Assembly (NCBI GenBank): GCA_004764695.1
Contig: SMSO01000031.1
Location: 3,147,048 to 3,211,047, forward strand
DNA length: 64,000 nucleotides
From: Schizochytrium sp. TIO01
Lineage: Eukaryota; Sar; Bigyra; Thraustochytrida; Thraustochytriidae
Reading direction: 5' to 3'
This document shows, in pieces, positions 45,131 through 64,000 of this stretch. Position 1 is the stretch's first letter. Each line of letters starts with the position of its first letter. A program made the translations under genes and the position numbers. The notes under the pieces were generated by a model. It did not search any database, had not been told where the DNA came from, and saw nothing but the letters and a program-made list of their open reading frames with translations.

Positions 45131-48100
45131 TTATACCTCCTCCATTGACATGTTGGAAATGAGTGTGCTACAAAAGCTTTCACGCTCGACGCGTGAAATA
45201 TAAGAAAGTTGTTGTAACTTCATCTGTAACATATCCGCCTCGTCTTGCATCGCCTTAATCTTCTTTTCTCGTCGCTGCAAACGTCTGAGAGACTGATCGT
45301 ACTTTGATTGAAGCTCAAAATTTGACGACTCAAGCTCACAAACATAATTTTCGAGTCGACTGAGCTCTTGGTCCGTAGTATACATTACCTTTGATTTGCG
45401 ACGTAGCTCCGCTGCCTCTTCTTTCGCTCGAATGAGCTGCATCTCACAGCACTTAAGTGCACGCCGATCCTCATCTGTTTGCATCTCGAGCGTTTCGTTC
45501 TCCTTTTCACGGGTTCTCAAAACCTCATGAAGCCTTGAGTTCTCTTCCAGTAGCGACTTGATTTTTGTCTTAGCACGTTCCTTGATCTGCAGAAGAACTT
45601 GACTGGACTCCTCCTGTTGAGCTTGGAGTTGTCCCACTTTATTCTCCTTATCGTGTATCGCAGAGACCATTTGATGGCTAAGACTCTCAGAGACACATTT
45701 GTACATTAATGCTCGCAAGCGCTCAACCTGTACACGCCATTGGCTCATGGCTTCAAACAAAGCTCGTTTTTCACGTCGAACCACCACTCGACGCAAGATG
45801 TTTCGGCGCACTCGCGAGTTATGGGCGTACTGTCTCCACAACTGCAAAGTTCTAGTAAGCCTCATTCGTCTAAAATGTCTACGCTGTGCCTTGGCTCGCG
45901 AAGTCTCTGATTTCCAGACTGCAAAAGATGCAATCAAGTGTCGCGAAGCTTGACGGCGGGCTGAAAGCTCATATAAACCCATCACTGTGCACCTGCCACA
46001 TACAAATGCTCTCCAAGCCTCAAAATGTCGGCGAAGTTTTCGCCTCGGATTAATTTGTCTTTTCCATAGAATTACTCGCGCTTGAATTACAGAAGTTCGA
46101 GCCTTCGTGATCTTGGCCCTGTTGCGCCAAGCAGTGAAGATTACACGCAAGTCTGATTTGCGACTCTCATAGCAATGCAGAGCCCATAATCTCAAACAAG
46201 AACGAAGGCTGAGAGGCTGAAATTGCACTATGCATGCCCAAATAGCATGGGCTGCTCGGTGACGATGTACCACTGTTCGAGAGTAGTTCATGAGACGCAC
46301 AGTCTCGCGCCATTTTGAAAATCCGCGTAGCATCCTAATCTTCGTGTTTGAAAGAAGTAAATGGGTCTTTTGTACGAGAGCACATAAAGAGGCTCTTCGA
46401 GAATTTTTGATAAACGTATACGCCTGCCAGTTTCGAAACGAAGTACGGCAAATAACAGTTGTGGACACGCGATGCCACTTATTCAGAGCCAAACTTTGAT
46501 GCTGTAAGCGTTGCATATAATTCTTCCATTGCGTGAAGTTCAAGGAAAGAATGTCTTTCGTGCAACATGCTAAACGTCGCAGGAAAAGGCGGCGAATAAA
46601 AATCTTCGCATGGACAAATGATGCCCAATGAGAAAAGGATTCGCGTAAAAAGACGCTATGTTCTGTTTGTAATCGCTGGCGTGTTACCCCCAGAATGAGA
46701 GCCAAGTTGTTACGTCTAAGAATTCGCGCCCAGGACTGGAAGGTGCGTCGTAAAAGTGCATCTTTAGATCTTCGTGTAAGAATAGCATAACGACTCCACG
46801 CAGTGAAGCTACGCGCAACATCAACCTTAGATAGCAAGGATTTGTTGTAGTTCCGCGCCTGGTTGTAACCTTCAGTTGCAAGGTCCACCATACCAAGAAG
46901 ACGCTGCTTTGCATTGTCAGCGCAACTGGCACGCCAAATATAGAAGCTTTTTCTGAGAAAATCATGTGATTCCTGCATTTCCCAAATGCGCTCAACAGAC
47001 ATCATGATTTGAGCATGGGAATATCGAACAGCTGCATGCTCGCGTAGTTTTGAAAATGCGCGGAAAAGATCAGCACGTCGCGTTCCCTGTCGATTGACCT
47101 GAGCAATCATTTGCAAGCCCAATGCCCTCGCTGCCATTTGCTTATTTTGAAATTGCACCTTGCGCAGTCGTTGAATTCCCATCATGAAATGGTACCATCC
47201 GTCAAAACACTGTTGCAACAATAGTCTTTGACGAAGGGTATAGGTTGCAGTCGCCCATTTTACATGCGTGTGGACCCAAGCAGAGCAGCTACGCCATTGA
47301 TGAAATGCTTTCGAAAGATGATATTTCCTCCACCAAATTACGGCTCGGCACACCATGAGCTGGTTAAGGATTCCTGGAAGCGACTTTTCACGGCGCACAT
47401 GAAAGGACTTGACATGGTCAACTAACCGTAGGAAAGCTACACGAACAGAAAGCTGGCGCTGGCGATGGGCTCCAAGTTGAACTGCAACCAAACCCAAGCC
47501 AACCACTGCTCTTATAGATTTCCAATTGTCCCAATATGAGCTACTAGACTCTTTCCTTGACTCAAGTTCTTCAGAATCCACCATTGCAAGATTATGGGCG
47601 TAATCAAGTTGCCCTTGCGCATAAACTACAACTCTTGCGAAAGCAACAAACCCCACGCGCATGAGACGTAGCCGCATTTGTTTCATGCACCTTCGAAGCT
47701 GAAGACCCCTGCGTGAAACGCGGTTCATCCATTCGCGACCCATTATTCCGCCAACTTGCTCGAGGTATTGCCCGATGCGCTCTTCTGCAATCGGAGACAG
47801 GGCACGTTGAGCTATAGTGACCGAAGCAACGCTTCTACCTGACCTGTTTTCTATGTGATATAATTGTTGTCCGGGATGAGCACGGTTAGCAAGTGGATGG
47901 CCGCGCACAAGGGCGATACGAACTTTTACGAACTCCCGATCTACGCTGGCAAGGAGTGCTACATGTTTTTGCAACATAATTTCGGCGCTCGCCGCCGAGT
48001 TAGAACATGCAAGATCGATCACTCGAGAGACGTCACTGTGGACTGCTTGCGACCATCGATTCATAAGAAGCTTTGTGAACGCGACGCGCAACTCGTGTTG

Positions 48101-51100
48101 CCTGCTGTACCGGACTACTCGTGTGAGAAATCGCCCAAGGATAGACTGTTTTCGTGTGCGACAGCGCAGAATCTGAAAGCCCCGGCGAAGTTGTAATCGC
48201 CGTACTACACTTGTTACGCGGGTAAACCTTATTCTTCGCTGATGGTCATAACGCAGTAAGCATTTGAGTTTGTGAAATCCATATTGAAGGTTAGAACGGC
48301 GCTCAATAGATCGAGCACTCGCGAAAATGGTCGATAAAATCATGACACGCCGACTAAAAACATGTGCTAACCAGGAGGACCAAGCTTGTCTCATTTGCAG
48401 CTTCCTCCAGTTCTTTACACAACGACTCAGTGTACGTTGCTGTATTGCATGCTGCGCAAGACGATGCAGAGCGCTCCGACAACAATACTGAGAGTAAGAC
48501 TGACAAATAGAATGTATGCACGATTTAGCTCGCAATTGGCGTTGTACAAAACCCAACCAGGAATCTAACCCTTGTTTGAGCCAGCGTCTGCGTGCATGCC
48601 GCAATAGACGCATTATTAGCAGTATATTTCGCGATGACCTATAAGTTGCAGCCCGCCAACGGCGAAGACTTTCTTTGCATTGAAGAAACTTCCAATTTTT
48701 CAGAACACGAAAAAGACGCAATTCCCGTAGCCGGGAAATCTCACAAAACTCTTGCCAAATTCTGATTGAGTTTGCGAGGTGTATTATCACAGTTTTCTGG
48801 TCTAAATTGTTTAGTACACTTGCAAGAGCGTGCAATCCGGAGTTCCCCCTTAAGTTCCGAAAAGCAGTTGAGAGTTCTACACGTTCGCAAGTGATTTTCC
48901 ATTGTAGAATAGCATCGATTTGTTTAGAGCGCAGGGATGCGTGGGTAGTCAGCACTTTAAATGCACTGCGCACAGCATTGTGACGAGTTCTATCAAAAGT
49001 AGGGAGTACTCGCGCTAAAATGAGGGTTCGCTGTTGTTCCTTAATACGGGAGCGATTGGTAAAATCTCTCCAGAGGGTAAAGCTTGATCTTACCTGAGTT
49101 GCAATTCTCCTACATGAAAGTTTTCGAAGCGTCCATGACAGCATGAAACGAGCTTGGCCAACCCGAAAGCTCAACTCTTTCCAGTATGAGAATGTTTGCT
49201 GTGCTAGAGCTCTAAGTTTTCTCTGCAGAATTAGGCGGAGCTTTCGCTGACGAGTTGTTTGCGCACCCCATGATACAAGCACCTGTCTTATATTTCGATG
49301 GCGCATCTTCGCTGACAAATCAGAAATTCGTTTGCCTTGTAAATGAGCAAGATACCAATCTCCAAACGTATCGTTTAACACTTTTCGCTCCTGTCGCTTT
49401 TTAAACTCGGCAACTGAATTATTGAGGTAAAATGTACGATGTACAACATGTCTCCAAGCCTGTAAATGGTAATGTAGACAACGATGCTTCCGTTTGCGAC
49501 AGATGATTCGCGTAGCTCGTTGACGAAGCATAGTAGCTTGTACCACTCGTGAATTCCAGGCAACAAATATTCCACTCAAAACCAAGGAGCGAGACACCAA
49601 AGTGATGTTGTTCCAATGATGAAGTGACTGTTTTAGCTTGAAGCATTGAACACGGTCATACATGCGAGATAACTGTACTACACCCCGCTGCTGCGGATTT
49701 TGAATGGTATGTTCATGGTACAACACGGTTTGTGCAATCGGTGTAAGTGCACGAGAAAGCTTCCTGAATGCGACATGAACCTTCTTGAGGTAAAGTCGAT
49801 GTAAAACTCGCCATAATATGACGCTGTTCAGCAAATATTGCCGCCGAAACACCAAATCCAGCTTCCAGCGCGAAAGGGCAACCCCAAGATTTCGTTTGAA
49901 GCATTTGGCGCATGCACGTCTAAGGGCGAGTTGCCGCCGTGTAGACAGAGATGTTACTCGAACCCAACGAGAAAACGCTAGACGAGTAAATGCATTCTGG
50001 GATGCTCTCACTAAGTGATGCAACAATAAACTCTTATGATTTTGGATAGAGACGTATTTTTGCCACCTCAGCCATGCCCCTGCTTGGAGACCTTGAGCTC
50101 TGTGCCGAAGTACTGATTTTAATCGACGTTGCTTAGCATTATGCCTTTGTAATAATTTAAAGGCTTGCCGTTGATCTGCCAGGTTGAGTGAAGATTGAGA
50201 CTTTTTGAATATTTGTTCCATTCGCACCAAAACATCCTGCCTCAGCAAGTACAGGTGCCATTTTCTCATGGACTGATGCAAAATGTTTTTTTGAAGAATC
50301 TTCCATAAACGTTGTAATACAAGTTGTTTAGATGTTGCCTCCTTTGCTTGGAGTTGCCAAAAAGCAAGAGTCTGACGTCGGGTTCTAGCATGTTGATCTG
50401 ATGAAATACGAGCGGATAGCGACTCGGCACGGCGATGACGTGAAAGGACATCCTTCCATGTATAAAAGGCACGCGGTACTTTCTGCCGCTGCATTCTACG
50501 CAGAACTCTAAATATTTTATACGCATTGCGTTGCCGCTCTGTATACGACTTCCACAAGCGAAAAGATTCAGCTAAGGTAGATTTTAGCATCCGTTTTACG
50601 ATAAGCAGCCGTGTATTCTTTCTTTGTTCAACTAGAGCTGTCCATGAAGAAAAGGCCTTAGAAAGACCTCGAAAACGCCAGCGTTGTATCACTATTTCAG
50701 CTGCATTTAGATTGGTTCGAGATTTATAGGCGTAGTGCAACCATTTGCGCCATGCGTATACGATGCGATGGTGCCTCCAGTTCCGAAGTGTAGTCTTCAA
50801 AATTCTCAATCCTCGGTGTTGGCCTCGTGCAGCTTGCAGAGCTTGGTACCAACTTAAAAATGCTTTGCTCAGACGAGTTGATCTCCAATGTGCCAAGGTT
50901 TTCTTGAGAAGACCTGCTCGATGTGAAGTAAAGCACCATACCTTTAGAGCTCTTTGCAGACGCAAGCGTCGCCATATTACAGCTACCTTTCGGATAGCTT
51001 GCTCTGTTTTCCCTCCCCAAGCCCCAGCAAGACGAATACGCTGGAAAGACTCTCTTAAATATCGAAGGCGCCACACAGCTAAGATTCGCCCAACCTGCTG

Positions 51101-54100
51101 GATATTCCGAACATTTGCAACAAGCTTTGACCACGCATAAGCTTGCGCACGGTATGCATATCTTTGTAGTCGTGAGCGAACTATTTGCAGGCCGTGAGCA
51201 AGGCGATCACCGACATGGGCCCATTTGCGCAAGATATTGTACGCAGTCCGAATACGAAGCTTTTGCCAGCGTTTGATAATTCTTGATAAAACTTGGTCTC
51301 TCCCAGAATCTGCCCTGGTAGCCATAACCCATGCAGAAAATCCATGTCGGACAATATTACGTAGGTGTCGAGCTATTAGACGCCGAATAAGAATTACTCG
51401 CCTTGTGTCGAGGTCGAGTTGCGAACGCCAACGCTGAAACGCCTGGGTTTTTTGACGTAGCTGATAATGGCTAAATACAGAAAAAAGGGTCATCTCATCC
51501 CGCAATAGCGTGTACCATTTTCGAAACGCCATGCGAAGCTGCAAGTGATACCAACGCCTGCATACCGCAAACAAACGGCCATAACGCGAATACTCAAAAT
51601 TTGCAAATAGAATCCAAGTTCGAAACGCGCGGGCTATCGCATTATGTGCCCAACGTTTTGCTACCTGGTTTGCAACTCTCCCTAAATGAGCGCTTCGCTG
51701 CACCCATGCTCGCCACTTTGAAAACGCACTGCTACAACGTTGTCGCTGTGCTGCACGCCAGTGCAAAATAACGGTTCGTGCAGATGACTTTTGCAAGGAG
51801 TCAAGTGAGCGTCTCTGCAACGCAGAGGCCTTCCATTTATTTAGTGCTGCGGCAATTAGCCCTCGTTGCCATCGCGAAAGTGTACGGAACAACTGTTGAG
51901 ATGCTATCTTCCTTTTCAAAGCTGACTTACTGAAAGTCTTCCAGGTAGAAAATGCGCGAAATGCATTGAGGTGGGTCAAGCGCGTAAGAGCTCTAGAGAG
52001 GAGATACTGCACTCGTTGCTGGTGAAAGGAATGGCTTTTAAAGGCGTGGAAGCCATCCAACATGAGACAACGAGACATCTTTAGAACTACTTTACGCATT
52101 TGTTGTTGCCGTCGCGCACTCTCATCCGACACGAGCTTCCAATGGATAAAGGAAGCCTCCACACGCTGCTCTGGGACTCTATGAGCGAGAGACCAGGTCC
52201 AAATCATCATTGCTCCTCGTAATTGATTTGTTTGATGAATAGCTCCTGTCCGGATACCTTGATGAAGACTTTGCATAGACCAGGTTAGAAATGCACGATG
52301 CAGTTGGGCGTATCGCCAGCGACGTAAAACCCGAACAAGTTTGGCATGAGCATATATTTGGCTCCGCGTCTCTTTGCAATAGCATTTAAGACGGGTCCAT
52401 GCTGCAAAAAGTCTGGCATTGCGCCAACAAACAAGTGTTCGTTGCACCAAGTAAGATAGGTGTCTACGATGTTGAGCGAATGTACGGATCTGTAAGAATG
52501 CACCTTTCAAGGAGCCTTTTTTAAAGGTCTCCCATAAAGCTAAAGTAGATGCAACACGCAATCGAACTCTTGCAGCAGACTCGGTAGTACTTCTACGCGA
52601 GACCTTGAAAGCCCGCAGCTTGGCAAAAACAATACGAAGAATATAGTGCCGGGATATTGTGCTTAATCTTTGCAGAGATTTCCACAGATCATCCACATAC
52701 TTCCACTTGCAAAACTTTTGACGAATACTGTGGCGAGTGAGCCGTCGTATCAAAATACTGGCACCGATTCGATGTGTTCTTCTAAGCTGCACGGAAGGAT
52801 GCGCGTTTGCTCGTAAACGAGACATAGCCTCACGTAAGATATCTCTGTGAACTGCCACACATTTTTGCATGATCCACTTGATAGTAGACTCTCGAAGCTT
52901 TGCATTGTCATAGCCGTTTCGAAGACGATTCATTGCGTATCGTAACATGTAAAGGCGGTGCCTTGAGCATAATTGGGAAAGTGCATGCGCTCTATGCATT
53001 TGCTCAATTTTCCTTACAGCAAAATCAGTACACGTATTTTCAATTGAGTCTGCAAGCTCGTCTGTTCGGCGTTTTGATCGAAGTTCATCCCATTTTCGAA
53101 AGGCATGGAATGAACGAGCTTGATTCCACATAGTCGCATGCAAGTGGAGATGTAGGAAAGCTCTTTGAGTACGCCTCTTCTGCGATGAATGTATAGCCTG
53201 ATAAAGGTACTTAAATCCAGCCTGTTGAAGACGCGTGCGATGGCCTAGTTCTAGCTTCTGGATTCGATGATTAACAAGATCAAGTACCTTTCTGGTACGG
53301 TCCAAAGCACCATTTGCTTGATCAATATCAGCTTCTGCAATATTGTCAATTGTAAGAATTCGAAAACCGTACGCCAGAAAACGTAACCTCCGAGCTCGTA
53401 AAGTAGAGCCCAAAATCGACTGTCGGCGCAATTTCTCTTGAGCTACTAAACGAATACGGTTAAACGCACGGAACTTTGAAAGCTTTCGAAATCTGGCTTC
53501 TAGCTGTACGATAAGTACATGAGCAAGCTTTGACTGAAAACGATCCTGCGCATCAAGTCTACTCTCATGTTCAGCAGCACGCAATAATTTTGTGAAGACA
53601 TTTCTTAAGACCCGCAAACGCCATCGTTGGTGAATATTCTGTAACATGCGTGCACCTGCTCTGAAGAGACGCACCTGCTCTGAAGAAGGCGGAAACTTTG
53701 CTTCAGGCTTTAGAGATTCCAGTGAAGGGTTTGACTGTAATAGAGGCGGTGAAAACAGCGCCACTGAGCGTTGTCGCAATGCCTGGAACCCTCTGCCAAG
53801 CATGCGTCTAGCACGTCGTTCCTCTGCACGAGCTAGCATCTGGGCTCCTGCTTGAATTGCCATTCGTGTTCGCTCTTCTAAAGCGATTTCAATTTGAGAT
53901 CGCAGTCGATCAGCAACCGCAGCAGCAGCAGAAGCCGTTGCAGCACTAATGGTAGAGTAGGTAGAACCCGTGGTTGAGATGACTGAACGATTCATACCAC
54001 TACTTGAAGAGCGACTGCGTATCAAAGAGATAGTCTTCAAACCCTGCCGTTTTCGCTCATGTCGCCTCATCCACGCAAATCTCTTCCAAGCAGCCCATGC

Positions 54101-55570
54101 GCGGATTAATTCGATTGAGGGGGGGCTAGGGTAGTAATCAAGAGGGGATGTGCTAAGTTCCCCATAGCTTACAGGTGTAGAGGAACTAGTTTCCTCGTCC
54201 TCATCCGCATCTTTTACATCGAGGTCCAGATCTGAAAATTGATGTTGTATTGGTTGACTCCCCACAGCAGCTGGTAGCCGTTTTTGAGAGTCTTTATGCA
54301 CGCGCCCAGTGTGGTCAATATGCATCCAACTCGAATCAGCGGTACCGTAGTCTGCACTACGCGTCCGAGGCTCATTACGTTGCTTGAGTGGCGATGGAGC
54401 AAAAGTGACCTGACCACGTCGATACGACCTATTCATACTCCCCTTGGAAAATAAAAAGTCATTAAAATCTGAGCTTGGTTCTTGTGCTAAGTCTGATGAT
54501 GTGTCCGACTCTTGCTCGTGAAGCTTCTCACTGATCGCAGCGCTCACTTTGCTTTCAAACGTACGAGGAGACCCATTCCAGCTGACGCGATCAATTGCTC
54601 TTGCAACAACTGAACCGGGTGATACTGGCGAAGATGATGATGAGGATAGTGGTGATAAAGGAAGTTTAGCGGAGACAAATTCAGCACCTGAAGGTGTCAC
54701 AGGATTTAAGCCGAGCTCATATTCTACATCCTTTCGCAGCTGCTCTGCTGCAATTTGCAAAGGGCTCTGGCTCCTTTGACGTCTGCGAATTTCACTCTTG
54801 CTTGTTCCCATCAGATTAAGCGAGTGTGTTGATGATCTATCATATATTTCATTAGCCTGCTCCATAACATCAACTTGCAGACCATCCTTCTCCATATTCT
54901 TATCCTGATCTGTATTCTGATTGTAGTCTTGATCAAAAGTTGACGCATGAGGTAGTCTTTCATCCGCAGACCTCCCATGAGGTCTCTTTGAAACTTCATA
55001 TACACCTTTGCGATGTTGCTGGTCTTTCTGTTGCTGCTGTGTTTGCTGTCGATGTGGCGTTGCGTTTCCCAAAGGTCTAGTTGACTTTAGTATAGAGCTT
55101 TTGTTGGCCATGCCCATGATACCTGTAGAAGCATGAACCTTTCTGCGATCTAAAATTTGAGGCCTACATTGGTCTTCATTTGCATGTGTGTTTCTGATTC
55201 TCAGCGAGCGATTCATCTCCAAATCATCGCTCGCAGATAGGCTCAGAGAAACACGCCTCGGTTCACGAAGACCCGAACTGTCTTTTGAGGAACGAGGAAA
55301 ATTAGAGTTGGGAGTTTGCGTTTTCAATAATAAGTTTTCCTCTGACAAGGAGTTTGCTGTTGCATGTGTTGTCGAATTCGTCGCATTAATAGTTGCATTT
55401 GACAAAGACAACAAGCCCAACGTAGAGGACTTGGCGGGTAAAAACGGATCACTCGAAGTTGATGAGGCGCCAAAGTCCGCCTCGGGCTGGAACGACACTT
55501 TCGGAAGTCGTTCGCGGCCCAGCCCAGTGGCCCATTGATCAAATGACTGCCGCCGAGGTTGCCCAGACAT
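45131..55570 (-). CDS. Giant Sfi1-like centrin-binding repeat protein
   Basis: A 3479-residue protein (about 410 kDa) in one 10.4-kb frame. Residues 1 to about 490 are Ser/Gln-rich and disordered. From about 490 to 3290 the protein is a chain of basic helical repeats with the Sfi1 signature [F/L]xxW, for example AFRKW, AFSTW, SFIHW, TFQSW and HFEAW; I count about fifty such motifs. Each Sfi1 repeat binds one centrin, forming a filament used in spindle-pole duplication and in contractile fibres. Residues 3290-3479 are a Leu/Glu/Lys coiled coil. Yeast Sfi1 (946 residues) and human SFI1 (about 1240) have about 20 repeats, so this one is over twice as long; ciliates have giant versions. The ATG at 55570 is the first in frame, although the frame is open about 18 codons upstream without an ATG. 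It diverges from the repeat protein at 58597. Confidence 0.92.
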   Translation of the reverse strand: MSGQPRRQSFDQWATGLGRERLPKVSFQPEADFGASSTSSDPFLPAKSSTLGLLSLSNATINATNSTTHATANSLSEENLLLKTQTPNSNFPRSSKDSSGLREPRRVSLSLSASDDLEMNRSLRIRNTHANEDQCRPQILDRRKVHASTGIMGMANKSSILKSTRPLGNATPHRQQTQQQQKDQQHRKGVYEVSKRPHGRSADERLPHASTFDQDYNQNTDQDKNMEKDGLQVDVMEQANEIYDRSSTHSLNLMGTSKSEIRRRQRSQSPLQIAAEQLRKDVEYELGLNPVTPSGAEFVSAKLPLSPLSSSSSSPVSPGSVVARAIDRVSWNGSPRTFESKVSAAISEKLHEQESDTSSDLAQEPSSDFNDFLFSKGSMNRSYRRGQVTFAPSPLKQRNEPRTRSADYGTADSSWMHIDHTGRVHKDSQKRLPAAVGSQPIQHQFSDLDLDVKDADEDEETSSSTPVSYGELSTSPLDYYPSPPSIELIRAWAAWKRFAWMRRHERKRQGLKTISLIRSRSSSSGMNRSVISTTGSTYSTISAATASAAAAVADRLRSQIEIALEERTRMAIQAGAQMLARAEERRARRMLGRGFQALRQRSVALFSPPLLQSNPSLESLKPEAKFPPSSEQVRLFRAGARMLQNIHQRWRLRVLRNVFTKLLRAAEHESRLDAQDRFQSKLAHVLIVQLEARFRKLSKFRAFNRIRLVAQEKLRRQSILGSTLRARRLRFLAYGFRILTIDNIAEADIDQANGALDRTRKVLDLVNHRIQKLELGHRTRLQQAGFKYLYQAIHSSQKRRTQRAFLHLHLHATMWNQARSFHAFRKWDELRSKRRTDELADSIENTCTDFAVRKIEQMHRAHALSQLCSRHRLYMLRYAMNRLRNGYDNAKLRESTIKWIMQKCVAVHRDILREAMSRLRANAHPSVQLRRTHRIGASILIRRLTRHSIRQKFCKWKYVDDLWKSLQRLSTISRHYILRIVFAKLRAFKVSRRSTTESAARVRLRVASTLALWETFKKGSLKGAFLQIRTFAQHRRHLSYLVQRTLVCWRNARLFAAWTRLKCYCKETRSQIYAHAKLVRVLRRWRYAQLHRAFLTWSMQSLHQGIRTGAIHQTNQLRGAMMIWTWSLAHRVPEQRVEASFIHWKLVSDESARRQQQMRKVVLKMSRCLMLDGFHAFKSHSFHQQRVQYLLSRALTRLTHLNAFRAFSTWKTFSKSALKRKIASQQLFRTLSRWQRGLIAAALNKWKASALQRRSLDSLQKSSARTVILHWRAAQRQRCSSAFSKWRAWVQRSAHLGRVANQVAKRWAHNAIARAFRTWILFANFEYSRYGRLFAVCRRWYHLQLRMAFRKWYTLLRDEMTLFSVFSHYQLRQKTQAFQRWRSQLDLDTRRVILIRRLIARHLRNIVRHGFSAWVMATRADSGRDQVLSRIIKRWQKLRIRTAYNILRKWAHVGDRLAHGLQIVRSRLQRYAYRAQAYAWSKLVANVRNIQQVGRILAVWRLRYLRESFQRIRLAGAWGGKTEQAIRKVAVIWRRLRLQRALKVWCFTSHRAGLLKKTLAHWRSTRLSKAFLSWYQALQAARGQHRGLRILKTTLRNWRHHRIVYAWRKWLHYAYKSRTNLNAAEIVIQRWRFRGLSKAFSSWTALVEQRKNTRLLIVKRMLKSTLAESFRLWKSYTERQRNAYKIFRVLRRMQRQKVPRAFYTWKDVLSRHRRAESLSARISSDQHARTRRQTLAFWQLQAKEATSKQLVLQRLWKILQKNILHQSMRKWHLYLLRQDVLVRMEQIFKKSQSSLNLADQRQAFKLLQRHNAKQRRLKSVLRHRAQGLQAGAWLRWQKYVSIQNHKSLLLHHLVRASQNAFTRLAFSRWVRVTSLSTRRQLALRRACAKCFKRNLGVALSRWKLDLVFRRQYLLNSVILWRVLHRLYLKKVHVAFRKLSRALTPIAQTVLYHEHTIQNPQQRGVVQLSRMYDRVQCFKLKQSLHHWNNITLVSRSLVLSGIFVAWNSRVVQATMLRQRATRIICRKRKHRCLHYHLQAWRHVVHRTFYLNNSVAEFKKRQERKVLNDTFGDWYLAHLQGKRISDLSAKMRHRNIRQVLVSWGAQTTRQRKLRLILQRKLRALAQQTFSYWKELSFRVGQARFMLSWTLRKLSCRRIATQVRSSFTLWRDFTNRSRIKEQQRTLILARVLPTFDRTRHNAVRSAFKVLTTHASLRSKQIDAILQWKITCERVELSTAFRNLRGNSGLHALASVLNNLDQKTVIIHLANSIRIWQEFCEISRLRELRLFRVLKNWKFLQCKESLRRWRAATYRSSRNILLIMRLLRHARRRWLKQGLDSWLGFVQRQLRAKSCIHSICQSYSQYCCRSALHRLAQHAIQQRTLSRCVKNWRKLQMRQAWSSWLAHVFSRRVMILSTIFASARSIERRSNLQYGFHKLKCLLRYDHQRRIRFTRVTSVVRRLQLRRGFQILRCRTRKQSILGRFLTRVVRYSRQHELRVAFTKLLMNRWSQAVHSDVSRVIDLACSNSAASAEIMLQKHVALLASVDREFVKVRIALVRGHPLANRAHPGQQLYHIENRSGRSVASVTIAQRALSPIAEERIGQYLEQVGGIMGREWMNRVSRRGLQLRRCMKQMRLRLMRVGFVAFARVVVYAQGQLDYAHNLAMVDSEELESRKESSSSYWDNWKSIRAVVGLGLVAVQLGAHRQRQLSVRVAFLRLVDHVKSFHVRREKSLPGILNQLMVCRAVIWWRKYHLSKAFHQWRSCSAWVHTHVKWATATYTLRQRLLLQQCFDGWYHFMMGIQRLRKVQFQNKQMAARALGLQMIAQVNRQGTRRADLFRAFSKLREHAAVRYSHAQIMMSVERIWEMQESHDFLRKSFYIWRASCADNAKQRLLGMVDLATEGYNQARNYNKSLLSKVDVARSFTAWSRYAILTRRSKDALLRRTFQSWARILRRNNLALILGVTRQRLQTEHSVFLRESFSHWASFVHAKIFIRRLFLRRLACCTKDILSLNFTQWKNYMQRLQHQSLALNKWHRVSTTVICRTSFRNWQAYTFIKNSRRASLCALVQKTHLLLSNTKIRMLRGFSKWRETVRLMNYSRTVVHRHRAAHAIWACIVQFQPLSLRSCLRLWALHCYESRKSDLRVIFTAWRNRAKITKARTSVIQARVILWKRQINPRRKLRRHFEAWRAFVCGRCTVMGLYELSARRQASRHLIASFAVWKSETSRAKAQRRHFRRMRLTRTLQLWRQYAHNSRVRRNILRRVVVRREKRALFEAMSQWRVQVERLRALMYKCVSESLSHQMVSAIHDKENKVGQLQAQQEESSQVLLQIKERAKTKIKSLLEENSRLHEVLRTREKENETLEMQTDEDRRALKCCEMQLIRAKEEAAELRRKSKVMYTTDQELSRLENYVCELESSNFELQSKYDQSLRRLQRREKKIKAMQDEADMLQMKLQQLSYISRVERESFCSTLISNMSMEEV

Positions 55571-58500
55571 CACCTCTTCCGCGTAAGGGCACTCGGACGG
55601 GTACTGGGCTTGACTTGGCTCCGTTATTTATTTCACTTGTTTTTTAAATTGATAAAATTTAAAACTTAAAGAAAAACCTTATATTACTAAATGATACCTT
55701 TATCGTTAGCTTTAAGAGCCTGTTCGCCTTTTACCCTATGGGTCCTTGCCAACCCATGTGTTGATATGATCGAGGTACTTAGTTTTGAATGTCATCAATA
55801 TCGAGCGAAGAGCATTTGTATGACCATTTGTGCTCACGCAAACGCTACGTTTAATAAGACTTTTGGTACACTAAGGGGATACAGACTCACTGCACAGAGC
55901 GTTTTCATTCCAAATCAGAAAATTGGCTAATGAATCTATCATTCAGGCTCTAATATGATAAATCTCAAAGTGTCTACTCTGAAGCTGGACATGTTAACTA
56001 TAATGAGGTGAATCCATCAGTGAAGTTTGAGCACAAGATCTCATTATATTTGAGAGTGAAAGGCTCGGAAAGACCAACATGATTTTCCAAGAAAGCTTTC
56101 TTGAAGTCTGAATTCGATGTAAATAGGCCTAGATACTTCCCTGCAACCCTCGCTTTTAAAGTTACAACAAATCCAAACAAGTAGGCTGTTTCGCTTGCTC
56201 TCGGTTTGAATATATTGTAATAGACTACAAGGTAATGGACGACATCATAGAAAGCGTGTTTTCAACTTGACATTGAGCCGCAAGACTCTTTTGTACTGAA
56301 TTGTAATCTTTTTGGAACTGCATTCAAATTTAGCATTCTACCTTAAGAAAGTGACACACGCGTTTGTTTGTATTTGCAGGTACTCCAAAGAACTAAACGC
56401 GCATCATGATCTGAATAACTGTGAATCGTATTTAAGCTACATATGAATTACCTAGCATCTAGTTGCGAAGAATACTAGTACCGAGATAGTGATCAGATTC
56501 AAATCAAAGACATCTGTGAAGCTGTTTTGAATCTTCATCTAGACACCGTGGTCTCCTGGTGTTGCGCGTCTGTACCAACCTTATTTAAATAGGAATAATA
56601 CCGAAAGTGTAGAAACCACTCAGCAAGGGTCAGATCTTCAACTTCATGAGTGAACATACAAAGAGTGTTGAAGTGTAGTCAAGCAAGCTTTCTTCAACAG
56701 TTGTAGTTGTATTTACGTATCATTGGAAGACCCAAATAGCATTGGGCACTTCATGTTAACACCCTGAGCAGATTTATTGAAGAGATTAAATCAGACGTCT
56801 TGTAATATGAGAGTATCTCTGACAATATCGTATGTTTGTGATGATAATTTGCATTCCAAAAACAAACAGGTGCTAGAGTTGGTGAAATTACATTTCGAAT
56901 CATTCATCTTCCAAGACTGAGGGCTCAACCTAAGTCAATATATCCTCATCACTTCGAGAACAAACAAACATAGTTTGGACTAGTAGAAGACACTATTGAT
57001 ACCTCCGAGTCTGGCCATGTTAATGTATTAGGAAATTGTTCGCTGAATGCGAATATTTGTGATTTAATATATTGTTCTACATAACACTCAAGAAGTATTC
57101 TGGACTTTGGTGTACCGGATATGACAGCTCTGAGTCGCCCTTAATTTTGTCAAGTTCGTAGTCCGGAGGGACTAAGTTGGTAAATTGGCGAGCAACTCGG
57201 CCGTCTTTCTCTGTTTCGCTTGAACTAAGCATGTCAATATTCATTATCGGTTACCCTTTTATTCTACTTAGCACCTCTCTGATTCTTGGTTACCCTATAA
57301 GTACGTAGCAGACAGAAATGAAGGTACTATTGAATAGACACACTAGTTATTATTAAAACCAGCTCGCCGGCTTCCATCCCGTCATTCGCGTGCTGGGCAT
57401 TCGATGAGACCATTGAACCTTCGTTGGATACACCTTAGTGTATTCCTAAAATTCTCCTTAGATGGATATAGCTCCCTATACAAAGAAAATTCCACAGTCA
57501 CCACGTGCAGCCATTTGGGCGCAGCACGAGCCTTTTGGTGGAGCACTTGTCCATATCAGCTACTGATCCAGACGCAAATTTGCCCACAGAGACCTCCGAG
57601 GTCTCCCAAAGCTGGCTTCACGCGCATTGGGGTTTTATGCCGTATATGATTTTTTTCTTTCGGGACATTTTCACACCTACGGGTTCCCTCCACATATAAC
57701 TTCGTTTTAGAGAAAATAAACTTCTCATTAACCATTTATCCAATTTAGGCTTCTTCAGAGATTTCAATGCAGATTGATTTAACAAAAAGATAAGCACCGT
57801 GGTTGGTAACGCCGCTATAGAGAACGCAGGGATGCTTCTGAAGATTTCGTCCTCAGTTCGAACTTAAAGGACGGGCGTTAGAATTTTCTGACGTGAGGAA
57901 ACGGCGGAGTTCGTTGATTGGGGACATCGGGCTCGCGCGGTACTGCACGAATTTGGTCCCCAAAGCTGCCAAACTCTCTATGCCCCTCATAAATGGCTTA
58001 GCAGCGCGGCAGGAGAGTTAGCCATCGGCTGTTGCAACTTGCACGCGTCAAGAGCAACGCTGTAAAAATGGCTGGCTCGCCCACTATCCGGCTGGCTCGC
58101 TACTGTCTGAATGGCAATGGGCTGGCTACTAACTGTCTACTTTTACTAGGTGTTAACCTCTGTGCTATTTAACTCTTAAAAGAAACACTGCCTGAGTCGT
58201 CAACTGACTTGATTCTGAGTTAAGGAAATCTAACAATGGGCTAGTTGTAGTAAACTCGTCAGAGTTTCTTTCATATTGTCCAGCCAATAGACCTGACGTA
58301 AATAGTCTTACAGAAAGTATTGAAAAAGCAGAGTTAGTCTTTTAAAGAATGTAAACCCAACGAACTTAAGCGGGGTTTGGATCTCAGCAGAACCTCAACT
58401 CCACTCGATAGCTTACACCAAGCAATACTCAAAAACAAAATCAAAGCACTGTGTTAAATCAATCCGTCGTGAAGTATAGCATTTATTGCCAATTCCTCAA

Positions 58501-58596
58501 AACTTGATTTAGAAGACATAACTTCAGCTCCATCTGTAACTCATCGTTCATTCACCAAAGAGTTTACCAGACTAAAGTACTAATCTTAGAAAGAAG
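55571..58596. other. 3-kb divergent intergenic region
   Basis: Separates two genes transcribed away from each other, so both promoters lie here. It is AT-rich, with no microsatellite of note, unlike the left part of the window. A 79-codon frame at 55691-55930 (+) starts with ATG but has no recognisable feature. I see no RNA gene. Confidence 0.55.
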
Positions 58597-61500
58597 ATGT
58601 CAACCTCCAAGGCATTTGCAGGTGTTGACCCCATTATGCGTCGCACCATTGACCAGCGCGGCGAGGTCGCTGAAGAGTTGACCCGTCGTGCTAGCTGGAG
58701 ATCTGCAAAGGAACTGATTGCAGAGGAAGCTCAGCGCCGTGATGTTGAGACGAAGACCACAATTGTGAATGAACAACTTCAGCGCACCATGAGCCAGAAA
58801 ATGGCATCCCGCATGCTTGATGAGGAGAAACAACGTCGAGTTGTACTGGCCATGGCTTCGGATGTGCTTGCCGAGCTCGAGCGTCGTGCCAACGCTGCTG
58901 AAGCTGATCGTGCTATGACCGAAGAGTTTGAGCGTCGTGTAGCCCAGGAGTCTGCCCTTCAGCAACAGGAAAATTCCGAGCGCACCGCCAACCAGATTCG
59001 CGCCAACGAGGACATGGACAATGAGAAGAAGCGTCGTGAATCTGTTGGTCTCCCCACCCAAGAAGCCGCATTTGGCCAGCTCTCTTGGTTTGCCAACGAA
59101 GTTGTTCGCGCAATCAACAAAAGCGCAGCACTTCTTGGCGAAGATGAAGAGCGCCGTCGTCGCATGATGGAAGATCTTCGTTCTCAGGTCGCTGGTGACC
59201 TTCAACGTAAGCTTAATGCTCGTAAGGCAGACCGTGGATCCGAGGCTGAGCGCGTACGGCGCATTGCTAGTGACAAGAAGATTGAGGTTATGTGCGAGCT
59301 TACTTCTCGTGCCGATCGTAAGCTCGCCAGCGAGCTCTCCGAGGCCGAGCGCCGCCGCCTTGTTGCAGCAAATGAGGACTTTCCCTACGGACGAACCTCT
59401 GAGAACAAGTCTCAGATTCTTGAGAAAATCCATTCACGTCAGAGCCTTCTCACTGCCCTCAAGGCCGAAGAGGACGCCCGCAAGGAATATGCTTTGGCTG
59501 ATCTATACCATAAGGTTGCTGAGGAGGTTTGCTTCCGGGTTAACAAAGCAGCAGCACTCGTTGCCCAAGAGAACGAGCGCTCTGAACGTGTGGCCCGTGC
59601 TAAGTTTATTGGTAATGTTGTTCCTGAGATTGAGGCACGTGGTCGTTTCAAGAGCATCTTGGAGCAAGTGCGGGCGGCACAAGAGGATCTGACCAAGGCT
59701 ATGCCTGAATCTCTTCGGCTCCGTGCTGAAGACCCCAACGTAGGGTCTTTGCTCGAAGATATTATTCGTCATGGCAATCAACAAAAAGCTCGCCGTCTTG
59801 CTGACGAAGAGAAAACTCGCCGTACGGCTGAGAACAGAAAGCTTGATGTTCTTGACGACCTACAGCGTGTTATCGCGCAAAAGAACGTCTCAAGCGAGGT
59901 CTCTCTTGAATCTGCACGTGCAAACCACATGCGTAAGTTCGAATTGGCGCGTGAGCAGGCTGCTGCGGAGGCCCGTTGGAAGGATCTTAGCTGCTTCATT
60001 GCTCGCGAGCAGTCTGAGGAAAAGAACGATGCTCCTCACTCTCCCACGCTCAAAGAAATCCTTGAATATGTTCGTTCCGATGTGGAACGTCTTGGAGCGC
60101 GTCGTGAAGTTGCTCAGGCCGTCAAAGAGGAACAAGAGCGCCGCACGCAGGCTGCTCGTGGCGAGGACGTCTTCCCTGGTGTGATTCGCGCCGTGAACCA
60201 GCGCGAAGCCACTCGTGCATGCATCTTAGAACAGCACCAGCGTGTTGCACGTCTTAAAGGTGAAGAGGTCCTCTCAGAGTTGTCTCGACGTGCTCTCCAG
60301 AACGCTGTTCGCGCACAGACTGAAACAGAGAGATCTTACCGTGAGGCCGGCATGAAGGACGAGCTTCTTCGTCGATCCAACTCAGCCAACTTTCGCGAGG
60401 TCTTGGACGAAATTCAACGTGAGAGTTTACGCAACGAGGTACTTCGCCAGATGGATCTTGAACAATCTGAGCGGGTCAATCGTGACCGTCTCGGATGGGT
60501 TATAAGTGACTTGGAGCGACACTTGAACCGTCTGCGCGCTGCCAACGATGCCGAAATGGAGCGATGCCGCCGCGTTGGAGCCAACAAAACTCGTGCAGTA
60601 CTTGACGAACTCGTTCGCTACCATAACCGAATGATTGCCGATGGGCTTGTTTGTAATGAGCAAGCTCGTCGTGTCCGTGACATGGATGTGGAGCGGAACC
60701 GTCGTGCATCTTTCCTTCAATTTTACGACATTCTTGAACAGGTTGAGCGCAAGTATGCGCAGCAAGTCGCAATTCGTGACGCTGAACTCGAGCGCGACGC
60801 TCGTATGACTCAGGAGACCTTTGCCAAGGTGCTTACCCAGCTCATTCGCACAGCTGCTCAAAAGGACGCGGACTTTGCAATGGATGCCGAGCGTGTTCTT
60901 CGAATGGCTCAGGAAGCTTTTGAAGCAGTCAACGTAGAGTTTAAACGCCGTGTTAATGCACAGGCTGCTGACAAAGCTGCTGACCAGGAGCGTCTTGATC
61001 GCATTCGTCGTTTGAGTGAGGATGCTTCAGTGCTTGTGAACGTGATGGCGTCTCCGATTCCAATGGTTCACGAACAGCTTCGCCGTAAGGCCTCGTGGAA
61101 GCAATCTAAGGCAGCTTACGAAGAGGAGCAGACCCAGGCCGAGGTCCGTGAGCGCGGAGTATCAGTTCGCGAGGAGCTTCTTCGAATTGCAGCTGTCAAA
61201 GAAGTCGAGGCTGCAATCGAGCTTGAGCGCCAGCGACTTCTGCACATTGAGCGTACTCGCGCTGTCCATGAGGAAATGGCACGTGCGCGCAGCGTCAAAC
61301 TCATTCATGCTGCCATTGAGCAGGAACGTAAGGAACGCATTGCGACTGCAGCAACGACTGCTATGAAGTTTGCCCTTACTGCAGCTAACTACCAAAGGGA
61401 TATTCCTTGTGCAGCAGCAACCCTGAGACGCCAGCGTGAAGAACGGCAACTCATCTACGAGGAGCAAAATCAGCAACAGGTTTCCTCGCCAGTGTCTAGG

Positions 61501-62496
61501 GCAAAGGTATCATCGTTGGAGCGCCTTTTGACTCAGTCAGAAAACAATGCAGTTCCCATTGTTGAGGAGCAGCACCGCCGCATGATGAAAGATCTCGATC
61601 AGGGAAGCGATGAGCATATCGCACGTCTCATGAACAGGCATTTGGCAAGCATGCTTTCTGATGAAGAGAAGTCTCGCAGGGTCTCTGAGATGCTAGAGGA
61701 GGACTCAGCTGCCGAGTTTGAGCGCCACCGTGCACAGCTAGAGGCTGCTTTCGAGATCAGCGTCGAGAAGCATGCTCGAACTCAGGCTGTTGCAGAAAGT
61801 TCAGAGAACCTCGATGAGGAGCGCCGTATCCGCCAGGAGTGGGCCAAATATGTATCAGACGAAGAACGTCGTCGCCGTATTTATGAGGCAGACCTTGGAT
61901 TCACGAACACTCGTCCTCGCCCTGGTCACCTTGTTGCTTTGCTTTCTGCTGACTGCGATCTCTTTGACTTTACTCTGGTGGATGGCAGTGACACCAACGA
62001 ACTCGACCAGGACTGGTCTGAGCTGTCTAACAACCTTTGCGTATCTCCCCGTGAGATCCGTCTCGAGAACGATCTCACATCAAGCATGCGATCTGCATTG
62101 GAGTTCTACCAGGAGCAGCAACGCCGGCGCATTGAGGATAAGGAGTGTGAGCTTGCTATTGACCTTGAGCGTAGCTTTAACAAAAGGCGCGCGCAGCATG
62201 AGCAAGACCTGGAGCGATTTAGCCGTGTCGAGCATGCTAAGCTGCAAGAGAGCATTAGCTCTCTTGAGCGCATGCATGCAGTAAACAGCGCAAAACGTAT
62301 GGCTGATCTTGAGCGTGATCGCCGCATGCTTGAACGCACTTACGTTGAGAAGATGACTGCTGACACCAAGCGTGTAAACCAGCAAAAGGCAATTCGTGAT
62401 ATGGAAGAGGAACGCACCCGCCGTATTAATGAGAGTACTGAATTTCAGGAGGCCTTACAACGTGCTATTCGTGCCGAATTTGAGAGTTCCAAGTAA
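58597..62496 (+). CDS. Large helical protein built of 33-residue repeats, unknown family
   Basis: A 1299-residue, highly charged, almost entirely helical protein that I cannot place in a family. Its hallmark is a unit of 33 residues beginning E-R-x-R-R, with Val at position 14, Asp/Glu at 17, Leu at 18 and Arg at 20. Back-to-back units run at 77-109, at 185-217 and 218-250, and at 699-731, 732-764 and 765-797; a 44-residue unit (33+11) occurs just before 699. Thirty-three is three hendecads, which suggests a long coiled coil or filament. The start (DPIMRRTIDQ, then TRRASWRSAKELIAEE) is echoed near residues 820-850 (SPIPMVHEQ, RRKASWKQSKAAYEEE), so the protein may be an internal duplication. 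A non-helical acidic island (about 1105-1150) precedes the last helical part. ATG at 58597 in AAGAAGATG. Confidence 0.88.
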   Translation: MSTSKAFAGVDPIMRRTIDQRGEVAEELTRRASWRSAKELIAEEAQRRDVETKTTIVNEQLQRTMSQKMASRMLDEEKQRRVVLAMASDVLAELERRANAAEADRAMTEEFERRVAQESALQQQENSERTANQIRANEDMDNEKKRRESVGLPTQEAAFGQLSWFANEVVRAINKSAALLGEDEERRRRMMEDLRSQVAGDLQRKLNARKADRGSEAERVRRIASDKKIEVMCELTSRADRKLASELSEAERRRLVAANEDFPYGRTSENKSQILEKIHSRQSLLTALKAEEDARKEYALADLYHKVAEEVCFRVNKAAALVAQENERSERVARAKFIGNVVPEIEARGRFKSILEQVRAAQEDLTKAMPESLRLRAEDPNVGSLLEDIIRHGNQQKARRLADEEKTRRTAENRKLDVLDDLQRVIAQKNVSSEVSLESARANHMRKFELAREQAAAEARWKDLSCFIAREQSEEKNDAPHSPTLKEILEYVRSDVERLGARREVAQAVKEEQERRTQAARGEDVFPGVIRAVNQREATRACILEQHQRVARLKGEEVLSELSRRALQNAVRAQTETERSYREAGMKDELLRRSNSANFREVLDEIQRESLRNEVLRQMDLEQSERVNRDRLGWVISDLERHLNRLRAANDAEMERCRRVGANKTRAVLDELVRYHNRMIADGLVCNEQARRVRDMDVERNRRASFLQFYDILEQVERKYAQQVAIRDAELERDARMTQETFAKVLTQLIRTAAQKDADFAMDAERVLRMAQEAFEAVNVEFKRRVNAQAADKAADQERLDRIRRLSEDASVLVNVMASPIPMVHEQLRRKASWKQSKAAYEEEQTQAEVRERGVSVREELLRIAAVKEVEAAIELERQRLLHIERTRAVHEEMARARSVKLIHAAIEQERKERIATAATTAMKFALTAANYQRDIPCAAATLRRQREERQLIYEEQNQQQVSSPVSRAKVSSLERLLTQSENNAVPIVEEQHRRMMKDLDQGSDEHIARLMNRHLASMLSDEEKSRRVSEMLEEDSAAEFERHRAQLEAAFEISVEKHARTQAVAESSENLDEERRIRQEWAKYVSDEERRRRIYEADLGFTNTRPRPGHLVALLSADCDLFDFTLVDGSDTNELDQDWSELSNNLCVSPREIRLENDLTSSMRSALEFYQEQQRRRIEDKECELAIDLERSFNKRRAQHEQDLERFSRVEHAKLQESISSLERMHAVNSAKRMADLERDRRMLERTYVEKMTADTKRVNQQKAIRDMEEERTRRINESTEFQEALQRAIRAEFESSK

Positions 62497-62824: not shown

Positions 62825-64000
62825 CTACAAAGAGGGTTGCGGTGAGTCTGGTCGATCTACAGAAGCACTGATGCTACGCGCAGCATTGCGTTGTATTGCT
62901 GCAACATCTGTGGCATCCATGAAAGCAACAGCAGCATTTGAACCTTTACGATGAGATATCGTTCCATGGTCAGATGATGGATCAGAATCAGTACGCACCT
63001 TGCCATCCTTGCCGATTGCAAATCCTGCCGAAGCAAGAACTTGCTCAAAGGTGGCTTCACGTACAGCCCAATCCTTCATTATTTCCTCGCGAGCCTCGTC
63101 GTTGAGACCTTCGCGAGTATATACTTCGTCCTCAAGAAGCCGCATCCAGTTATCACGATTCGTAGCAATCTGAATACATGGGTCTGAGGAGTTTGGGAGT
63201 AGGGTAGACATAGCAAAGAAAAGCGGTGCCACGATAAAGTCAATAAAGTTAATTGACATCTCTGCCTGGCTAGTTGTATCCCGATCCATATTAGGAGAAA
63301 CTTCCCAGCCGTTGGCGCGTTCAAGGTCACCTTGTGCATAAAATTCTTCGCAGACAAGATCTTGCCAGCGCTTAGAGCACGCCCAAGATCTTGTAGGGTT
63401 ACTAATATCGGAGCAGTGTAAGATTGACTTTGCAATCAAGCTACGCTCTTCTATATTCATGGAAGAGGTTGGCTCATCCATATGACGCACGATGCAGTCT
63501 CTTAATTCGCCTGTTAGGTCGAAATGGCAAGTCATGTCTGTGGCGAGAATGCAATCTAGTACAATTTGACGAACACGCGTAACGCTTGCTTCGTCTAGAT
63601 TGCACAAAATGTTCGTTGTATTGCTCTCAAACATACTGAACGTGCAGGCACAATGGTGGCTTTCTAGAACAGACCTACCTTCATAAAGCATAGCCAATTC
63701 TGTTTTAGCCTTCACTTGAAACGCATTGTTAAGACCAGGGTGTTCAAGGTCGTGGCAAAACGCTGCAATAGTAAGTGCGAACGCGTGCAAGTCGTCTAAG
63801 AACTCGCAACCGCGCATAGTAGTTAGCATACAGAAGGTACCTTGCAAGACATCACAAGCATGATCGTAATTGTGGTATGGATTGTGATGCATCGTCATGC
63901 CTGCCTCCACACGCTCGACAAAGGCGACGAGCCTATCAGCAGGGACAGAAAACTTCGAGTCGGCGCCCATGGTGCGGAACATAAAGGACACAAGGCTTGT
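62825..64000 (-). CDS. Class I 3',5'-cyclic nucleotide phosphodiesterase, catalytic domain (5' end outside window)
   Basis: Hydrolyses cAMP and/or cGMP. The frame is open to the window edge, so the N-terminus is missing; about 390 residues are visible. The metal-binding signatures are complete: YHNYDHACDV (HNxxH), CHDLEHPGLNN (HD) and HCSDISNP, whose Asp matches the PDE4 metal ligand. The usual SQ-x-GF block before FIDFIV reads E-M-S-I-N-F here, so the invariant purine-binding Gln seems replaced by Ser (63254-63256), though a Gln lies four residues earlier. The tail after the domain has R-K-G-S, a PKA-type site. Any regulatory domain (GAF, REC, membrane) would lie to the right of the window. 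Substrate preference cannot be told. Confidence 0.93.
   Translation of the reverse strand, partial: TSLVSFMFRTMGADSKFSVPADRLVAFVERVEAGMTMHHNPYHNYDHACDVLQGTFCMLTTMRGCEFLDDLHAFALTIAAFCHDLEHPGLNNAFQVKAKTELAMLYEGRSVLESHHCACTFSMFESNTTNILCNLDEASVTRVRQIVLDCILATDMTCHFDLTGELRDCIVRHMDEPTSSMNIEERSLIAKSILHCSDISNPTRSWACSKRWQDLVCEEFYAQGDLERANGWEVSPNMDRDTTSQAEMSINFIDFIVAPLFFAMSTLLPNSSDPCIQIATNRDNWMRLLEDEVYTREGLNDEAREEIMKDWAVREATFEQVLASAGFAIGKDGKVRTDSDPSSDHGTISHRKGSNAAVAFMDATDVAAIQRNAARSISASVDRPDSPQPSL

Follow-up and report, generated by a model that had tools for sequence, protein, structure and literature searches.

The DNA analysed here (the window) is a stretch of 64,000 nucleotides from Schizochytrium sp. 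TIO01, contig SMSO01000031.1, and carries at positions 58597..62496 of its + strand a gene for a protein built of 33-residue repeats, referred to below as the repeat protein. The repeat is real and well ordered, and the protein is most probably a scaffold of elongated helices. The open reading frame (ORF) encodes 1299 amino acids, with ATG at 58597, a stop codon ending at 62496 and the preceding in-frame stop codon at 58573-58575; a single exon was read from this one open frame alone. The protein contains 13.8% R, 13.5% E and 12.2% A, with VILMFYW at 25% and Trp at 0.5%. Charged residues make up about 37%, the net charge is -9 across the 1299 residues, and Pro and Gly occur 17 and 25 times, respectively. 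The features of the gene are given below; units are named by their first residue, and predicted helices are from AlphaFold2 (AF2).

58597..62496, +, whole repeat-protein gene, a single open frame of 1299 aa
58630..59043, +, residues 12-149, first of the long predicted helices, comprising units 11, 44, 77 and 110 (single-sequence AF2; unit profile and list)
59044..59061, +, residues 150-155, predicted helix break containing Gly/Pro, with lengthened 33 spacing (AF2, sub-profiles)
59149..59346, +, units 185 and 218 (unit profiles)
59377..59400, +, residues 261-268, predicted helix break containing Pro/Gly, with lengthened 33 spacing (AF2)
59710..59907, +, units 372 and 405; helix broken at 369-370 and 378-379 in a weak model (unit profiles, AF2)
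60130..60327, +, units 512 and 545; helix broken at 523-525 in the weak model (unit profiles, AF2)
60328..60360, +, residues 578-588, 11-residue insert (sub-profiles, unit list)
60361..60657, +, units 589, 622 and 655 (unit profiles)
60658..60690, +, residues 688-698, 11-residue insert (sub-profiles, unit list)
60691..60987, +, units 699, 732 and 765; together with the 15 residues that follow, a single helix in the model (AF2, pLDDT 96.5)
61066..61344, +, residues 824-916, ungapped match to 24-116 (local alignment, z 7.2)
61567..61863, +, units 991, 1024 and the weaker 1057 (unit profiles, unit list)
61885..62091, +, residues 1097-1165, acidic-rich linker containing Gly/Pro, no unit found (composition, sub-profiles)
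62113..62409, +, units 1173, 1206 and 1239 (unit profiles)

The 33-residue period and its units

Periodicity was analysed by autocorrelation using BLOSUM62 at lags 1-150, with z calculated against 500 permutations. The highest lag in the repeat protein was 33 (z 12.7), followed by 66 (5.6) and 110 (3.6), and lags 29, 11 and 22 gave z values of -0.6, -1.4 and -1.4, respectively. Lag 33 survived block shuffling, with z 13.3 for 7-residue blocks and z 11.7 for 11-residue blocks. The original prediction had deduced the period from six units (77, 185, 218, 699, 732 and 765) and had set periodicity analysis as its check; the autocorrelation confirmed the period, and the six units were found in register. 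The same six, together with unit 44, were used as the seven seeds of an iterative unit profile, which yielded 22 units. This profile was trained on the same protein, so that self-scores are inflated and drop to 3-32 bits when calculated leave-one-out; the untrained evidence for the repeat is the autocorrelation.

About 27 units are readable in a list that was partly assembled by eye and in which weak units were accepted for lying on the 33 lattice, and 17 of the 26 successive intervals are exactly 33. A spacing of 44, which had been described as a single case of 33 + 11, is arithmetically correct and occurs twice (545 to 589 and 655 to 699). The remaining seven intervals (74, 75, 76, 78, 79, 81 and 116) exceed a double or triple unit length by 8-17 residues. 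A pair of sub-profiles, which are not independent, having been trained on 20 units of the same protein, placed block 27-39 at a step of 14 from block 13-24 in 21 of 24 cases (two of 25 and one of 15), and the return step to block 13-24 was 19 in 17 of 23.

The approximate consensus of the unit is E1-R-x-R-R5-V6...V14-L15-x-x-L18-x-R20-x-x-N23-Q-x-x-A27. Over 20 units the most informative columns were R5, E1, A27, R20 and N23, then V14 and L18, and eleven columns reached at least 1.5 bits; N was enriched at position 23 (11 of 22 units).

Residues 24-116 and 824-916 (window 58666-58944 and 61066-61344, +) match ungapped and have in common the motif RRASW / RKASW. Local alignment of segments 1-140 and 800-985 gave this match a score of 104 against a shuffled mean of 53 (z 7.2). 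The five segment pairs compared gave z 7.2, 6.5 (this match again, from 1-60 against 805-870), 3.4, 2.4 and -0.1; since shuffling destroys the repeat itself, z overstates any special relation and part of it is the shared repeat. Self-BLAST of the protein reported no off-diagonal match. The block match suggests, at the level of sequence, a multi-unit duplication of about three units.

Predicted helix and hydrophobic pattern

Residues 699-812 were modelled by AF2 with an alignment of 8 rows, in which the query was joined by seven further multi-unit stretches taken from the protein itself, and gave one helix over fragment residues 2-113 (112 residues; predicted local distance difference test, pLDDT, 96.5; predicted template modelling score, pTM, 0.53). 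Residues 1-560, modelled without an alignment, were nearly all helix (mean pLDDT 68.9, pTM 0.23), with helices at 12-149, 156-180, 184-246, 249-260, 269-368, 371-377, 380-474, 485-522 and 526-559, and breaks at 150-155, 181-183, 247-248, 261-268, 369-370, 378-379, 475-484 and 523-525. Pro or Gly lies inside or within 2 residues of 7 of these 8 breaks, and three of the breaks (150-155, 261-268 and 475-484) coincide with a lengthened 33 spacing. Acid-to-base pairs (D/E to R/K) numbered 82 at i+3 and 82 at i+4, where chance would give 45 (z 7.1 and 6.9, respectively), and base-to-acid pairs at i+4 gave z 2.5. Such an excess of acid-to-base pairs is expected for a helix that would be stabilised by internal salt bridges.

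The original prediction had described the unit as three hendecads. As internal structure this was not borne out: the relation is arithmetic only, and neither autocorrelation nor Fourier analysis gave an 11-residue sub-period, the period-11 hydrophobic power being 0.1 of expectation. The corresponding fold, an ordinary two-stranded parallel coiled-coil filament of hendecad or stuttered-heptad type, in which 33 residues as three hendecads keep the seam on one side, is a possible if rather doubtful account of the protein. It would fit the long predicted helices and the two inserts of exactly 11 residues, by which helical phase is kept. It would also fit the hydrophobic harmonic of 33/9 = 3.667 in the averaged unit of 20 units (p 0.009, among 16 harmonics tested), the best hendecad register, starting at position 11 (VILMFYW, p 0.015 over all registers), and the hydrophobic moment in 18-residue windows, in which 3.667 equals 4.125 (both z 4.4). 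Against it stand the negative z at lag 11 and most comparisons with a period of 4.125, which in the averaged unit gave p 0.007 and, when Ala and Cys were counted, p 0.002 against 0.25 for 3.667. With Ala the hendecad register fell to p 0.18, and its core positions 4, 25, 26 and 29 were hydrophobic (VILMFYW) in only 0.10, 0.20, 0.25 and 0.15 of the 20 units. The best seam of nine 3/4 steps gave p 0.07 and 0.43 against permuted columns (150 permutations), whereas a seam of eight 4/5 steps gave p 0.014, and its best stripe with Ala, 2-6-10-14-18-22-27-31, was equalled in 0 of 500 permutations. Longer windows favoured 4.125 over 3.667, with z 5.3 against 2.5 for 33 residues and z 6.6 against 3.1 for 66 residues (3.5: z 0.3). 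Overall, the hendecad seam is weaker than the 4.125 hydrophobic stripe, which on a straight helix winds round about once per unit. At 100 degrees per residue, R20, N23 and A27 and the E1 and R5 of the next unit fall by arithmetic within 60 degrees, opposite V14 and L18; as far as can be read from the residues, such an arrangement on two faces is not typical of a plain two-stranded coiled coil.

A stripe of 4.125 that shifts face within each unit also raised the alpha-solenoid of two-helix hairpins (TPR, HEAT, ankyrin), TPR/HEAT-like with a 33-residue repeat, and both the enrichment of N at position 23 and the helix breaks placed inside units 372 and 512 by the weak model would agree with it. 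The solenoid was dropped on the AF2 model, in which three units form one uninterrupted helix, and with no Pfam match at E<=1; the few Pro and Gly residues and the 11-residue inserts likewise argue against hairpins, which we regard as highly improbable. On the models, each repeat most probably forms part of a single helix rather than a hairpin.

Neighbouring genes and searches for relatives

The gene upstream of the repeat-protein gene lies on the opposite strand.

45131..55573, -, neighbouring Sfi1-like gene, 3480 aa, with its own lag-33 peak (z 8.4)

Its designation as Sfi1-like was upheld by the presence of Sfi1-type motifs: [FLIVM]xxW[KRH] occurs 38 times against 6 expected and [LIVMFY]x3[FLIVMY]xxW 50 times against 9 expected. 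The fuller motif A-x7-[LIVMFY]-x4-[FLIVMY]-x2-W was found 0 times against 0.8 expected in this ORF. In Pfam, searched with the ORF up to an E of 1, Sfi1 was not matched, the only match being a chance one (0.83), and a 667-aa piece of it had no convincing match among PDB structures (best E 0.11). Its top autocorrelation lag is also 33; the equality of this period with that of the repeat protein may be coincidence. Profile comparison of the repeat protein with one 667-aa piece of the Sfi1-like ORF was negative. The head-to-head orientation of the two genes stands as originally described; with 3.0 kb between the ORFs, it does not imply that they have a promoter or function in common. Of the stop-to-stop frames lying entirely within this gap of about 3.0 kb, the longest has 100 aa.

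Downstream, a PDEase_I (3'5'-cyclic nucleotide phosphodiesterase) gene at 62825-64000 (-; E 7.6e-82) lies tail-to-tail with the repeat-protein gene, its 3' end being 0.3 kb away on the opposite strand. Elsewhere in the window are a Tubby-family protein at 16306-17730 (-; PF01167, E 4.8e-28) and, at 5987-8665 (+), a protein kinase followed by EF-hands, which resembles a calcium-dependent protein kinase.

Relatives of the repeat protein were sought in Pfam (no family with E of 1 or below), PHROGs (0 matches), NCBIfam (one chance match, E 7.6) and the PDB by phmmer (0 at E up to 0.1). The motif, for which no named family had been known to the original prediction, is without significant match in these four libraries, and the repeat is, judged by its sequence, new to this set of libraries, which contains no eukaryotic proteomes. 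The protein could already be known as an 'uncharacterised coiled-coil protein'. Profile searches of the PDB gave MOP23C (PDB 9e2g/9e5c chain; E 0.22) and a designed bundle (E 2.9) for unit profile A2, two chance matches (E 0.24 and 0.64) for A3 and none at E up to 10 for A4. MOP23C was dropped, as the match did not recur with a second profile; the name has 0 occurrences in the main text of PMC12041511. Pattern searches gave 3 matches in a collection of viral contigs and 7 in one of genome contigs, none of them confirmed; these collections are viral or prokaryotic and say little about eukaryotes. In the organism's own genome (64 Mb, 37 contigs) the repeat protein as query matched no locus but its own, whether the cut-off was E 0.001 or E 10, with all 9 candidates scored; counts from this genome are lower bounds, which exon-split or weak paralogues could escape. 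Unit profiles A2 and A3, run against 843 six-frame ORFs of the window, gave a best non-self E of 0.5 among the best 12 per profile, and the Sfi1-like frame was not among the best 12. Among the titles and beginnings of abstracts listed from the open-licence literature, there was no like 33-residue helical or hendecad repeat protein.

Candidate functions and comparison with known systems

We consider it about an even chance that the repeat protein is a structural rod with a continuous-helix repeat and repeated binding faces, acting as a cytoskeletal scaffold, possibly near the flagellar base. In such a rod each 33-residue unit would be a stretch of continuous alpha-helix of about 4.9 nm (1.5 A per residue), and runs of units would form stiff helices of roughly 10-20 nm, linked by short hinges; helix and hinges here are those predicted by AF2, and the acid-to-base pairs three or four residues apart would stabilise the helix internally. 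The periodicity, the conservation of the unit and the charge pattern are observed in the protein itself. One side of the unit would present a hydrophobic patch of V14 and L15 with L18, and partly positions 11 and 22, and the opposite side a straight conserved stripe of R20, N23 and A27, continued by E1 and R5 of the unit that follows. Conserved faces on opposite sides, together with the excess of acid-to-base pairs, agree with a stiff helix that would make contacts at intervals of ~4.9 nm, and an identical pair of faces recurring at this distance could serve lateral self-packing or a repeated partner. Long straight helices, as predicted, would fit a filament or scaffold role; the binding, this role and the location we infer.

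Several points weigh against the rod. No homologue was found in the collections searched. The larger AF2 model is weak, the alignment of the better one was drawn from the protein's own repeats (pTM 0.53), and AF2 readily renders R/E/A-rich sequence as helix. The predicted breaks at 369-370, 378-379 and 523-525 border or interrupt units 372 and 512, and the helix may thus not run unbroken through every unit. The tubulin lattice repeats at 4 or 8 nm and the rise of actin is ~5.5 nm; 4.9 nm is commensurate with neither, so no cytoskeletal track is indicated, and on this arithmetic a tubulin ruler is disfavoured. In favour of the rod as proposed, the genome contains genes for SF-assemblin (116 bits) and a radial spoke protein and is therefore probably that of a flagellated eukaryote; flagellar genes elsewhere do not make the repeat protein flagellar, and a tektin match was absent from the genome search.

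Other functions for a long helix were weighed beside the rod. A scaffold for EF-hand proteins of the centrin or calmodulin type, Sfi1-like, in which a single helix would carry one small protein per 33 residues, is unlikely. According to PMC8622359, the centrin triad is W1xxL4xxxL8 and the Sfi1 binding region spans ~33 residues. The top lag of 33 common to the Sfi1-like neighbour would favour such a scaffold, as would hydrophobic residues (VILMFYW) with the 1-4-8 spacing, which occupy positions 11-14-18 in 8 of 27 units, in 4 of which (589, 699, 732 and 765) F occupies position 11. Unfavourable to it are the 0 occurrences in the repeat protein of both [FLIVM]xxW[KRH] and [LIVMFY]x3[FLIVMY]xxW, for which chance expectation is only 0.35 and 0.42, the scarcity of Trp and the lack of a profile match to the neighbour in the parts compared. 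The conserved R5, R20 and E1 are not known to belong to a centrin motif. Similarly improbable is a new class of helical ruler, a continuous-helix repeat bearing two opposite conserved faces in every 33 residues, with the 4.9-nm pitch of the Sfi1-like neighbour; the two proteins could then be aligned in parallel, each unit beside its counterpart, in a centrin/Sfi1-type fibre. That the repeat protein coats lipid droplets as a giant amphipathic helix, in the manner of perilipin 4, has very little probability in our estimation: repeat length and number do resemble human Plin4, which according to PMC5889406 has 29 33-mers of 3 x 11 residues each, whereas the repeat protein has no 11-residue sub-period, a charged fraction more than twice the 0.15 given there for the Plin4 helix, a net charge of -9 overall against +1 per 33-mer and a hydrophobic stripe that shifts face along the unit. 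A charge-reversed Plin4 mutant left the droplets (PMC5889406).

Protist cytoskeletons contain many fibres with building blocks yet to be named, and homology is a poor guide to the classification of long-helix proteins. For the rod that we favour, the precise 33 register, the eleven informative columns and the predicted hinges constitute a fingerprint by which relatives may be found, and the three-unit fragment is a ready object for structural work. If paired with Sfi1 or centrin fibres, the protein would account for fibre spacing; if it forms a filament peculiar to its lineage, SF-assemblin would be joined by a further class.

Comparison was made with known helical systems. SF-assemblin and the striated flagellar root filaments are likewise R/E-rich helical proteins with a fixed multi-turn period, which in SF-assemblin is 29 residues. 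The genome has an SF-assemblin gene of its own elsewhere (L002, G000:C24:5437175-5440909; PF06705, 116 bits), which served as positive control and peaked at lag 29 (z 4.0), then 18 (z 3.7), with z 1.3 at lag 33. The repeat protein, negative at lag 29, is not SF-assemblin, with whose 29-residue repeats the original prediction had contrasted it; PF06705 was excluded by the period and by the lack of a Pfam model match, a separate gene being the one that matches, and L002 is without significant similarity to the repeat protein. A further locus (L004, G000:C13:3471813-3475208), whose ORF was read for 1075 residues and is truncated at the edge of the locus, scored 19 bits for SF-assemblin, below the cut-off, and its autocorrelation peaks at 40, 18, 36, 11 and 7 represent yet another period. 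Single alpha-helix (SAH, ER/K) domains have the same pattern of acid-to-base i+3/i+4 pairs; they are far more charged, and the repeat protein differs in its 25% of VILMFYW and its conserved hydrophobic positions. MOP23C has in common a weak profile match over 64 positions, which is not significant and was not recovered by the second profile. A 33-residue helical repeat as such has precedent in perilipin 4, where a similarly long series of such repeats is described (PMC5889406); its repeats are made of 11-mers and are weakly charged, forming a lipid-droplet coat, whereas the repeat protein is without an 11-mer sub-repeat and has more than twice the charge. The Sfi1/centrin-binding repeats share a near-33 repeat on one continuous helix (PMC8622359); in the repeat protein a repeat of ~33 residues was found, and the continuous helix was found by prediction, over three units. 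The repeat protein differs from Sfi1 in lacking the Trp-based centrin motif and a profile match to the Sfi1-like neighbour; in geometry, Sfi1 is the nearest known system.

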